In this document: positions 19,334-32,199 of the stretch, piece by piece
How positions within the stretch are numbered: position 1 is the first letter of the stretch
How the letters are laid out: every line of letters begins with the position of its first letter
Source of the DNA: Neobacillus sp. PS3-12
GTDB lineage: Bacteria; Bacillota; Bacilli; Bacillales; Cytobacillaceae
DNA length: 64,000 nucleotides
Assembly (NCBI RefSeq): GCF_030915385.1
Contig: NZ_CP133268.1
Coordinates: forward strand, 4,190,001-4,254,000
Direction of reading: 5' to 3'
Program-made: the position numbers and the translations under genes
Notes under the pieces: model-generated
Database searches by the model: none
Seen by the model: the letters and a program-made list of their open reading frames with translations, nothing else
What the model was told of the DNA's origin: nothing

Positions 19334-20272
19334 ATGACTGTTTATTTGGATGTTATTTGGTTGTTAAACTTTTTATTTGATAGCCTGCTCCTTTATTTAA
19401 CAGCCTTATTTCTAAAGCGTAAGATTCGCATTTGGAGGCTGGCAGCCGGTGGTTTCATCGGATCTATGATCATCATCCTTGCGTTCACACCAATCAGCAG
19501 TATGACGAACCATCCAATCAGCAAATTCATTTGTTCAATCCTCATGATTCTTACAGTATTCGGCTACAAAAGATGGAGTTACTTCTTCAAAGGATTGATG
19601 ACACTGTATTTAGCTACTTTTTTACTTGGAGGTGCACTAATTGGAGCACACTATTTTATTCAATATGATTCCAGATTAACAACAAGTGTAATCCTTTCAA
19701 GTGCTCAAGGTTTTGGTGATCCAATCAGCTGGCTTTTTGTGTTACTTGGCTTTCCGATTGCATGGCATTTCTCTAAAACCAATATAGAGAGTTTGGAAAT
19801 GGTAAAAATCCAATATGATCAAATTGTTGACGTTAGCGTTTCAATTAATGGAGATGTTCTAATTTTTAAAGGGTTAGTTGATAGTGGTAATCAGCTTTAT
19901 GATCCATTGTCGAAAATGCCTGTGATGTTTGTTTCGATAAAACAGCAATTTGAACAGGTCTCTGAGCCGATAAAGATGCTAGCAAATGATGGAGAGGCAG
20001 TGATTATGGGCAGCTTAGAAATCCCGACAGAATGGCAAAACAGGCTAAGAGTCGTTCCGTATAGTGTGGTTGGACAAGAGAGACAGCTGATTGCAGCGAT
20101 TAAACCTGATCAGATCGTAATCAGCAAGGACAATGACCAATACATGTGTGAAAAAGGACTCGTGTCATTTACGATGCAGCAGCTTTCCGCTGACAACGCT
20201 TTTGAATGTATTGTACATCCTAAAATGCTGACGGGGTCACGGGGCAGCAAGGATTCAGAGAAGGTAAGCTAA
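19334..20272 (+). CDS. spoIIGA: SpoIIGA, membrane aspartic protease that activates pro-SigE
   Basis: SpoIIGA sits in the septal membrane of the sporulating cell and cleaves pro-SigE after a signal from the forespore. The first 150 residues hold five hydrophobic segments. The cytoplasmic half carries the aspartic protease motif VDSGNQLYDPLS, with D183 as the catalytic residue, at the same position as in B. subtilis. Its substrate gene sigE follows 45 bases downstream. Length (312) is normal. The bpr gene found here in B. subtilis is absent. Confidence 0.95.
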   Translation: MTVYLDVIWLLNFLFDSLLLYLTALFLKRKIRIWRLAAGGFIGSMIIILAFTPISSMTNHPISKFICSILMILTVFGYKRWSYFFKGLMTLYLATFLLGGALIGAHYFIQYDSRLTTSVILSSAQGFGDPISWLFVLLGFPIAWHFSKTNIESLEMVKIQYDQIVDVSVSINGDVLIFKGLVDSGNQLYDPLSKMPVMFVSIKQQFEQVSEPIKMLANDGEAVIMGSLEIPTEWQNRLRVVPYSVVGQERQLIAAIKPDQIVISKDNDQYMCEKGLVSFTMQQLSADNAFECIVHPKMLTGSRGSKDSEKVS

Positions 20273-20317: not shown

Positions 20318-21037
20318 ATGAAAAAGTGGCGGCTTCACCTATCATATCTTTGGTACAAAATTCTTATTAAGCTTGGAATTAAAACCGATGAAGTCTATTA
20401 TATTGGCGGAAGTGAAGCATTGCCGCCTCCTTTAAGTAAAGATGAGGAGGAACTATTATTAAAAAAATTGCCTAGCGGAGATAAGGCTGCTCGCTCAATC
20501 TTAATTGAAAGAAATTTAAGATTAGTCGTTTATATTGCGAGAAAGTTTGAAAATACAGGGATAAACATTGAAGATTTAATCAGTATTGGAACCATCGGTC
20601 TTATCAAAGCGGTAAATACCTTTAACCCTGAAAAGAAAATTAAGCTTGCTACATATGCATCAAGATGTATTGAAAATGAAATTCTAATGTATTTGCGCAG
20701 GAATAATAAGATAAGATCAGAAGTATCTTTTGACGAACCATTAAACATTGATTGGGATGGGAATGAACTTTTACTATCCGATGTTCTTGGAACAGATGAG
20801 GATATTATAACGAAGGATCTTGAGGCAAATGTTGATCGAAAGCTGCTGACAAAAGCATTACATCAACTCTCTGACCGTGAAAAACAAATAATGGAATTGC
20901 GTTTTGGCCTCGCAAATGGCGAAGAAAAGACACAGAAGGATGTTGCCGACATGCTTGGTATCTCGCAATCATATATTTCGAGACTGGAAAAAAGAATCAT
21001 AAAAAGACTCCGTAAAGAATTTAATAAAATGGTTTAA
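20318..21037 (+). CDS. sigE: RNA polymerase sigma-E, mother-cell sporulation sigma factor
   Basis: SigE directs early mother-cell transcription. The first 30 or so residues ([20 protein letters not shown]) are the amphipathic pro-sequence that SpoIIGA removes. Region 2 follows with [18 protein letters not shown] and [20 protein letters not shown], and region 4 with [15 protein letters not shown] and the helix-turn-helix [19 protein letters not shown]. The 239-residue length is exactly that of B. subtilis. A strong AGAAGGAGGA precedes the ATG. Confidence 0.97.
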
Positions 21038-21146
21038 TCAAAAAATATTTTTAAAAGTAAAATGGCATAAACTAGGGAATTTTACTATATTTCTATAATT
21101 TTTAGCTGTCTTAGGGCTTAGGACAAGTGCATATTTTTCCTTCTCA

Positions 21147-21186
21147 AGGAGATACTGTTTTTTGTACAGCAACTCCTGTGAGGAGG
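21147..21186 (+). promoter_or_regulatory. sigG leader with competing hairpins over the Shine-Dalgarno
   Basis: AGGAG (21147-21151) and CTGT (21155-21158) can pair with ACAG (21166-21169) and CTCCT (21173-21177). The same CTCCT can instead pair with the ribosome-binding AGGAG at 21181-21185 across a three-base loop. The two folds are mutually exclusive. A leader hairpin that lowers sigG translation has been reported in B. subtilis, which supports a role here. Confidence 0.55.
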
Positions 21187-21196
21187 GAAAAAGGGT

Positions 21197-21976
21197 TTGA
21201 CTCGAAATAAAGTTGAAATTTGCGGTGTCGATACATCAAAACTTCCTGTTTTAAAGAACGAAGAAATGAGATTACTCTTCAAGCAAATGCAAGCGGGCGA
21301 GATTAGTGCCCGTGAAAAACTGGTCAACGGAAACCTGAGACTTGTTTTAAGTGTCATCCAACGATTTAATAATCGGGGCGAGTTTGTTGATGACCTGTTC
21401 CAGGTTGGCTGTATTGGACTTATGAAATCCATTGATAATTTTGATCTAGGTCAGAATGTAAAGTTTTCTACCTACGCAGTACCAATGATTATTGGGGAGA
21501 TTAGACGCTACTTGAGGGATAATAATCCGATCCGTGTTTCCCGTTCACTCCGCGATATTGCCTATAAGGCATTACAGGTTAGGGAACGGTTAATGAGTGA
21601 AACCTCCCGCGAGCCAACGGCTGAAGAAATTGCTAAGGTTTTGGATGTCCCGCATGAGGAAATCGTTTTTGCCCTTGACGCTATTCAAGATCCTGTTTCT
21701 TTATTTGAGCCTATCTATAACGATGGGGGAGACCCGATCTATGTGATGGATCAATTAAGTGATGAAAGAAATAAAGACACACATTGGATTGAAGAATTAG
21801 CGTTAAAAGAGGGAATGAGAAGGTTAAATGACCGAGAAAAGCTAATCCTCAGGAAACGTTTCTTTCAAGGAAAGACACAAATGGAAGTCGCTGATGAAAT
21901 TGGAATCTCGCAAGCACAAGTTTCAAGGCTTGAAAAAGCAGCTATTAGACAAATGAATAAGAATATACAAAGTTAA
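21197..21976 (+). CDS. sigG: RNA polymerase sigma-G, late forespore sigma factor
   Basis: SigG drives late forespore gene expression. The 259-residue product starts TRNKVEICGVDTSKLPVLKNEE, matching the characteristic SigG beginning, followed by region 2 (VDDLFQVGCIGLMKSIDNFD, KFSTYAVPMIIGEIRRYLRD) and region 4 (LNDREKLILRKRFFQGKTQ, DEIGISQAQVSRLEK). The start is TTG at 21197, 11 bases after AGGAGGG; no ATG is available. It has 159 bases of its own leader after sigE and is probably both co-transcribed and transcribed alone. Confidence 0.96.
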   Translation: MTRNKVEICGVDTSKLPVLKNEEMRLLFKQMQAGEISAREKLVNGNLRLVLSVIQRFNNRGEFVDDLFQVGCIGLMKSIDNFDLGQNVKFSTYAVPMIIGEIRRYLRDNNPIRVSRSLRDIAYKALQVRERLMSETSREPTAEEIAKVLDVPHEEIVFALDAIQDPVSLFEPIYNDGGDPIYVMDQLSDERNKDTHWIEELALKEGMRRLNDREKLILRKRFFQGKTQMEVADEIGISQAQVSRLEKAAIRQMNKNIQS

Positions 21977-22099: not shown

Positions 22100-22182
22100 C
22101 TATTGATTTCCGCTTCGGGCACTCGCTTTCCGCAGGGAGGCACGCCTGCGGAAAGCGAAGTGCCTGGAGCGCCAATCAACAG
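22100..22182 (+). repeat. Structured intergenic repeat, copy D (short variant)
   Basis: TTGATT (22103) and AATCAA (22174-22179) flank a long hairpin: GGCACT plus CGCTTTCCGCAGG pairs with CCTGCGGAAAGCG plus AGTGCC across an eight-base loop, with one bulged A at 22158. Its right end AAGTGCCTGGAGCG is shared with copies A and B, so it is a shortened relative. The 110 bases between it and ylmC hold only an AT-rich stretch and a possible weak promoter. Confidence 0.75.
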
Positions 22183-26357: not shown

Positions 26358-26429
26358 TTTTTAAACAGTAAAATAGAATGGGCATTGACGTTGAAGGGGA
26401 CAGTACAATTTTTCAAATAACTTTTTAAC

Positions 26430-26641
26430 AGCGAATCGGGAATGGTGGGAGCCCGAAAAAAGGTGAAAAATTGGAAAATCACCCTGGAGTTCCAAACTGA
26501 AATCAATTGAGAGTAAGTTGCGGCGAGTTATTCACGTTACGAATGGTCATAAGAGGATGGCAGAAAGACTGCCGTCTATCAGGGTGGTACCGCGGGAATA
26601 AACCTTCTCGTCCCTATATTGGGATGAGAAGGTTTTTTTAT
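26430..26641 (+). promoter_or_regulatory. T-box riboswitch (isoleucine) with terminator
   Basis: The invariant T-box AGGGTGGTACCGCG is at 26581-26594 and pairs with the uncharged tRNA acceptor end. Stem I lies around 26430-26500, with a likely specifier ATC (isoleucine) at 26478-26480. The terminator is AACCTTCTCGTCCC (26601-26614) against GGGATGAGAAGGTT (26621-26634), then T residues. When uncharged tRNA-Ile binds, the antiterminator forms and ileS is read. Confidence 0.93.
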
Positions 26642-31389: not shown

Positions 31390-31406
31390 AACAATAGTTA
31401 AATAAG

Positions 31407-31523
31407 CCTTTAAAATCAGTCCCGTGAGGCTGAGAAGGAAACGGATTATAATAGAGCGAGCTATGCTTCTATTTTGCTTTAATCATGTACCTCTCACCGC
31501 TCGGAATGGTGAGGGGTTTTTTT
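31407..31523 (+). promoter_or_regulatory. PyrR attenuator 1 (pyrR leader)
   Basis: The PyrR-binding hairpin carries CAGTCCCGTGAGGCTG (31417-31432), clamped by CCTT/AAGG arms. The terminator is CCTCTCACC (31490-31498) with GGTGAGGGG (31508-31516) and seven T residues. PyrR bound to UMP stabilises the first hairpin, which prevents the antiterminator and stops transcription. Confidence 0.88.
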
Positions 31524-31543
31524 ATGAAAAGGAGCAGGTGTAG

Positions 31544-32089
<546 letters not shown>

Positions 32090-32093
32090 ATAA

Positions 32094-32199
32094 CCCTTTT
32101 AATTGCAGTCCTGTGAGGCTGTCAAAGGGGAATGTTCCCAAAGCTTTTTCTTGGCGGATTCTACCTCTTTGTACATCAGCACACAAAGGGGTTTTTTAT
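32094..32199 (+). promoter_or_regulatory. PyrR attenuator 2 (pyrR-pyrP)
   Basis: The PyrR loop GCAGTCCTGTGAGGCTG (from 32105) is clamped by CCCTTTT/AAAGGG. The terminator is CCTCTTTGT (32164-32172) against ACAAAGGGG (32183-32191), then T residues. Confidence 0.85.

Follow-up and report, generated by a model that had tools for sequence, protein, structure and literature searches.

A promoter spacer as predicted Shine-Dalgarno cover: the sigG control region of Neobacillus sp. PS3-12 as a probable start-site gate and damper

Introduction

Translation of sigG in Bacillus subtilis is dampened 2-4-fold by a small RBS hairpin, as documented with reporters and mutation (Mearls 2018, PMC5942855). According to the available part of that paper, this hairpin has 5 pairs, made from five of the six bases altered in a +10 to +15 mutant, the sigG leader is 30 nt long with the core RBS at +19 to +23, and among the Bacilli surveyed RBS hairpins were present in 15 of 15 and a 14-bp promoter spacing in 14 of 15. 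The same part credits Masuda et al. 1988 with the proposal of a hairpin of 20+ pairs in RNA that reads through from spoIIG into sigG, a structure that cannot form in RNA begun at the sigG promoter, PsigG. It also describes that sigG expressed free of restraint leads to premature sigma-G activity and to such activity during growth (PMC5942855), and the leader hairpins count among these restraints.

A similar design is known from phage T4. Long early RNA of genes e, soc, 49 and I-TevI hides the RBS, which is best shown for gene e, and the late promoters give shorter RNA that lacks the 5′ part of the structure and is translated (PMC3014915, in its available part). The T4 gates concern different genes and organisms, and no relation is claimed.

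Both leader folds of the locus described here are already known from B. subtilis, one of them shown there by mutation, and finding them is in itself ordinary. We add evolutionary support for the older and less tested read-through hairpin, in that the promoter spacer tracks the Shine-Dalgarno (SD) region across species. All support presented is computed, and Bacillaceae is used as our own label for the host group.

The sigG locus and its promoter

The window, that is the whole stretch of 64,000 nucleotides of Neobacillus sp. PS3-12 that was analysed, contains spoIIGA, sigE and sigG in this order, with sigG downstream, and all three score above the curated NCBIfam equivalog cut-offs (Table 1). 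The closest named matches of SigG were from Neobacillus citreus, a Bacillus sp. and Neobacillus drentensis, each with 96% identity.

Table 1. Genes and control elements of the sigG region in window coordinates.
Feature	Position	Strand	Basis
spoIIGA (sigma-E processing peptidase), first gene in upstream operon	19334..20272	+	NCBIfam TIGR02854, 295 bits, cut-off 209.55
sigE (spoIIGB)	20318..21037	+	NCBIfam NF006158/TIGR02835, 448/447 bits, cut-offs 339/348.6
-35 element GCATA of the sigma-F/sigma-G promoter PsigG	21129..21133	+	pattern match
Promoter spacer, 14 nt; 21134-21146 (UUUUUCCUUCUCA) predicted to double as the 5′ arm that covers the SD in the read-through hairpin	21134..21147	+	RNA folds; spacer shuffle and swap tests
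AGGAG, predicted partner of CTCCT in read-through RNA only	21147..21151	+	sequence; fold
-10 element GGAGATACT, including GGAG of the upstream AGGAG	21148..21156	+	pattern match; leader comparison
PsigG +1 (inferred), leader 33 nt	21164	+	position carried over from B. subtilis
CTCCT, anti-SD arm in the RBS hairpin and inner 3′ arm in the read-through hairpin	21173..21177	+	sequence; folds
SD AGGAGG, within the 3′ arm of both hairpins	21181..21186	+	sequence; folds
sigG, TTG start (21197)	21197..21976	+	NCBIfam TIGR02850, 514 bits, cut-off 457

A sigma-F/sigma-G promoter with a short 14-nt spacer is present at 21129-21156, and its sequence GCATA-N14-GGAGATACT fits the sigma-F/sigma-G consensus. 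The pattern GCATA-N14-GGNNANANT had a sole exact match in the 64-kb window, with 0.22 expected. The spacing is identical to the 14 nt of B. subtilis PsigG given in the available part of PMC5942855. The B. subtilis start was mapped onto the leader of Bacillus mojavensis (L031), and by this analogy transcription from PsigG probably begins at about 21164.

A scan for sigma-70-type promoters returned two sites on both strands together (0.8 expected), and the only one on the + strand, at 21062-21091, is weak. The terminator scan of 20900-21300 found no terminator-like site. Located 5′ of the -35 box, at 21107-21125, is a hairpin TGTCTTA-GGGCT-TAGGACA with no T run, which the scan does not call a terminator.

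Two transcripts with different predicted access to the Shine-Dalgarno sequence

RNA from PsigG can form a 5-bp hairpin, CTCCT-GTG-AGGAG, of -5.6 kcal/mol (ViennaRNA). It is like the RBS hairpin of B. subtilis (PMC5942855, available part) in the gene concerned, the promoter with a 14-nt spacer, the 5-pair CTCCT stem and the non-ATG start; the start codon is however TTG here and GTG in B. subtilis, the last stem pair is U-A here and, judging from B. mojavensis L031, U-G in the B. subtilis group, and the stability reported there, with RNAstructure, is -6.2 kcal/mol. In the earlier note this fold had been taken for a second, directly anti-SD layer on top of the known leader hairpin, when it is the published B. 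subtilis hairpin itself, pair for pair. That note was right in having the SD covered by a hairpin of the leader, and by analogy with B. subtilis the small hairpin is expected to dampen sigG translation here; the switch role given to it was not supported.

Read-through RNA from spoIIGA-sigE is predicted to fold into one 22-pair hairpin with the SD within its outer stem, through pairs 21134-21146/21179-21191, 21147-21151/21173-21177 and 21155-21158/21166-21169. The fold is above chance, at -37.4 kcal/mol against -26.2 (sd 3.7) for shuffles of 21100-21220 (z -3.05), of which 3/200 fold as well as the native sequence. As in the B. subtilis spoIIG-sigG hairpin described in the available part of PMC5942855, with 20+ pairs there and 22 here, a structure of at least 20 pairs that covers the RBS is restricted to RNA starting 5′ of PsigG; the arm sequences vary between species.

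When the 5′ end was moved along the region, the energy for opening the SD was 14.0-14.7 kcal/mol for sampled ends from 21038 to 21134 (14.6 at 21134) and 2.9 kcal/mol for an end at 21164, and the SD was nearly free only for ends at about 21144-21148 (0.8-1.4 kcal/mol, with the minimum of 0.8 at 21145). Two start sites give, in folding models that leave out ribosomes and folding order, two RNAs with very different predicted SD access. RNA from the weak sigma-70-type site would begin 5′ of the spacer arm and would be closed too.

The earlier note had proposed a simple switch, in which CTCCT alternates within one RNA between the upstream AGGAG, leaving the SD free, and the SD, which is then hidden. 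Direct reading confirmed the arms at the positions claimed (Table 1), both pairings are possible in the sequence, and RNA with a 5′ end in the narrow range of 21144-21148 would indeed leave the SD nearly open; the promoter scans predicted no promoter that would start RNA there. The AGGAG however overlaps the -10 element and precedes the inferred +1, and should therefore be absent from PsigG mRNA, within which the two folds then cannot compete. Two of the five AGGAG:CTCCT pairs were checked in the read-through RNA and both have a probability >0.999, yet the SD stays hidden because UUUUUCCUUCUCA, just upstream of AGGAG, pairs with it (spacer:SD probabilities of 0.98-0.99, against about 1e-8 for the CTCCT:SD pairs checked). 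Neither RNA has the SD freed in the 5′-end scan, in contrast to the claim that one fold frees it. In addition, the -10 element has GGAA and not GGAG in 11/68 distinct leaders of the comparison below, yet CTCC is kept in those inspected by eye. With its upstream arm overlapping the -10 box, and with the SD hidden in both expected RNAs, the two-state switch was rejected as highly improbable. The choice of fold depends on the transcription start and therefore points to a start-site gate instead.

The sigG control region is in our reading very probably such a gate combined with a damper. Read-through RNA would carry the 5′ arm UUUUUCCUUCUCA into a 22-bp hairpin that buries the SD, and sigma-G should therefore not be made from that RNA. 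RNA begun at PsigG would start inside the long hairpin, without the 5′ arm, and would be translatable, although weakly, because CTCCT would still pair with the SD; unlike in the T4 gates, the short RNA would thus be partly closed by a second hairpin. The same stretch of DNA would serve as -35/-10 spacer and, once transcribed, as SD cover. Read-through from spoIIG presumably occurs and is silenced in the present organism, and the arrangement would keep sigma-G out of the cells and times in which the spoIIG operon is read.

Leaders compared and conservation of the small hairpin

A pattern of promoter and leader, allowing up to 3 mismatches, matched in 166/193 genomes of the family. Ten of the 27 genomes without a match were looked up. 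In nine of them promoter and leader are present but fall short of the pattern by one base; the tenth, G153, gave no leader match. Loss in one genus, g14, with 0/21 pattern matches, was considered and rejected, as four g14 genomes were among the ten looked up and 9/10 of these have the leader.

The comparison comprised 112 leaders, from the window, 80 named loci and 31 further ones. A promoter was recognised in 108/112, with the strict pattern in 84 and with the relaxed pattern only in 24, and the spacer was 14 nt long in 96 of these promoters, 15 in 9 and 16 in 3. Excluded from the counts were L049, L051, L054 and L077, with no recognised promoter near the start, and L038, with no recognised SD. 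The remaining 107 were split by organism name, a division of our own choice, into 82 Bacillaceae-type leaders and 25 others, and removal of identical copies of spacer plus leader left 68 distinct Bacillaceae-type sequences and 23 distinct others, mostly Paenibacillaceae. For the covariation alignment, 38 of the 51 distinct sequences of equal length were retained after thinning by eye. The -10 element GGAGATACT was exact in 55/68 distinct Bacillaceae-type leaders. At the sigE stop of L051 and L054, both Brevibacillus, there is a promoter-like GCATA motif; their sigG leaders are much longer, with a different stem over the SD.

Our own scan found a terminator-like site in the sigE-sigG gap in 12/67 Bacillaceae-type sequences and 3/22 others, and a read-through hairpin should matter less where the gap has such a site. 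In L004 and L009 the terminator-like site is 5′ of sigG, with the -35 TGCATA as its 3′ arm and the spacer T run as its tail, so that terminator and promoter may overlap.

Taken as a single sequence the RBS hairpin is ordinary (z +0.27 against shuffles), and opening the SD of the PsigG leader in the window takes 3.2 kcal/mol, compared with 2.3 for shuffled leaders (p 0.24). The sequence CTCCTNNNAGGAGG has one exact occurrence in the window and, with one mismatch allowed, two matches against 0.42 expected, both being the sigG site on the two strands. The 38 aligned sequences, the window included, have 3/5 pairs of the stem invariant and 97.4% of cells pairing, and no covariation was found for the RBS hairpin among them. 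By a loose criterion, a stem of at least 4 pairs overlapping or abutting the SD is found in 67/68 distinct Bacillaceae-type leaders; the SD-proximal stem is not CTCC-based in a few, such as L045, L070 and L078, and L002 and L006 have no CTCCT but can pair in a new register, with a stem of 6 pairs. Compared with shuffled leaders the hairpin was hardly stronger, with a mean of 3.90 versus 3.18 in the Bacillaceae-type group, with p <= 0.05 in 3/68, and 4.72 versus 4.93 in the other group, with p <= 0.05 in 0/23. The RBS hairpin is raised above chance by conservation and not by single-sequence stability.

Matching of spacer and Shine-Dalgarno region across species

The SD was more hidden in read-through RNA than in PsigG RNA in 67/68 Bacillaceae-type sequences, by at least 3 kcal/mol in 60, and in 21/23 others. 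The exception, L097, has read-through RNA that is no more closed than its PsigG RNA. In the mostly Paenibacillaceae group the read-through form was more closed by at least 3 kcal/mol in 12/23 and less closed in 2. When the spacer alone was shuffled with its composition kept, 60 times per leader, the mean SD opening energy fell from 11.35 to 6.52 kcal/mol in the Bacillaceae-type group (p <= 0.05 in 51/68) and from 8.85 to 4.78 kcal/mol in the others (p <= 0.05 in 15/23).

Exchange of spacers between species gave a reduction, from 11.36 to 9.72 kcal/mol for the 51 sequences with distinct spacers and from 11.21 to 10.01 kcal/mol for the 36 with spacers of equal length, and in both sets 0/20000 permutations were as good; among the 51, the native spacer exceeded its own row mean in only 36. 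Because related species share both spacer and SD region, the swap was redone for the 36 spacers with one fixed reordering of positions applied to all. The native order had z 4.56, against 0.81 for the reversed order and -0.78 to 2.38 for 11 random column scrambles. Pairs of near relatives had positive coupling in 17/26 (mean 2.04 kcal/mol, one-sided Wilcoxon p 0.009); over all pairs 974/1273 were positive, a count in which related sequences enter many times. None of nine other promoter-like sites reached p <= 0.05, these controls coming from 10 genomes searched with the 14-nt spacer pattern and several of them probably being chance matches, and two 15-nt spacer patterns used for promoter controls in the organism's own genome gave no match. 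The energy-based swap tests preceded the fixed-column counts and RNAalifold, and the order-scramble and other-promoter controls came after.

Covariation in fixed columns of the long hairpin was mixed. Eight pairs were changed on both sides, and 1/500 shuffles was as high, but structures slid by +1 and +3 had covariation scores of 0.135 and 0.137 against 0.128 in register, and those slid by -1 and -2 had 20 and 21 doubly changed cells against 17 in register. RNAalifold on the 38 leaders missed the long hairpin; it returned the small one together with a local 5′ stem, and no pair changed on both sides. Inspection by eye revealed shifted pairing registers in several species (L088 for instance), which counts in a fixed register cannot follow. 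The pairings read by eye were spacer CCCACCC with GGGAGGG in B. mojavensis L031, CCTTACAGG with CCTGTAAGG in L088, GTC with GAC in L024, ACCCTCC with GGAGGGT in L042, where the flanking U-A pair is replaced by A-U, and, in Alicyclobacillus L077, CCCCCC with GGGGGG, there separated by a much longer leader. The independent events are modest in number because one general layout is common to most of the family.

The RNAalifold result, together with a small stem that is nearly invariant and is the hairpin for which B. subtilis mutants were studied (PMC5942855, available part), would suit an explanation in which only the small RBS hairpin matters and the complementarity of spacer and SD is a by-product of a pyrimidine-rich spacer. 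Shuffles that preserve the composition of the spacer nevertheless lose about 5 kcal/mol, the species matching in true order exceeds all 12 order-scrambled controls, and the spacer effect is seen at 0/9 of the other promoter-like sites, and we consider this explanation unlikely. Across species, the base order of the spacer fits the local SD region. This matching favours selection on the read-through hairpin, although fixed-column covariation is mixed. We lean, by a little, towards the wider view that in Bacillaceae, and probably in Paenibacillaceae, the sigG spacer is a dual-use element also selected as RNA, tracking the SD region so that upstream transcripts are silenced and the internal promoter gives the sole translatable form. 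Searches in a limited collection of literature found no report of species-matched sigG spacers.

If this wider view is true, a developmental sigma factor is gated by the start of its mRNA, as T4 lysozyme is, and SD tracking could be one constraint that helps to hold the spacer at a suboptimal 14 nt. Confirmation would make sigG a bacterial-chromosome case in which the start site gates translation and the promoter lies within the silencing hairpin.

Other features of the region

The stretch ACAGCA at 21166-21171, just 3′ of the inferred +1, is at least 90% conserved in every column of the 38-row alignment. Its partner CTGT at 21155-21158 is not conserved, being for instance CTTA in L031, and ACAGCA is accounted for by neither hairpin. 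This unexplained conservation could fit a leader that responds to a metabolite or protein by switching the RBS hairpin, a possibility raised by Mearls et al. (PMC5942855, available part). The leader is however only about 33 nt long, no Rfam family reached the gathering threshold in the sigG leader region when the whole window was searched, and weakening or strengthening the hairpin in B. subtilis has effects at early as well as late stages of sporulation (PMC5942855, likewise the available part), so that a responsive leader is barely credible here.

Elsewhere in the window the Rfam search returned ordinary elements, a T-box leader at 26382-26618 and PyrR binding sites at 31403-31525 and 32092-32199. 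Downstream of sigG, at 22124-22157, there is a long inverted repeat, CGCTTTCCGC...GCGGAAAGCG, the exact pattern of which occurs at one site in the genome.
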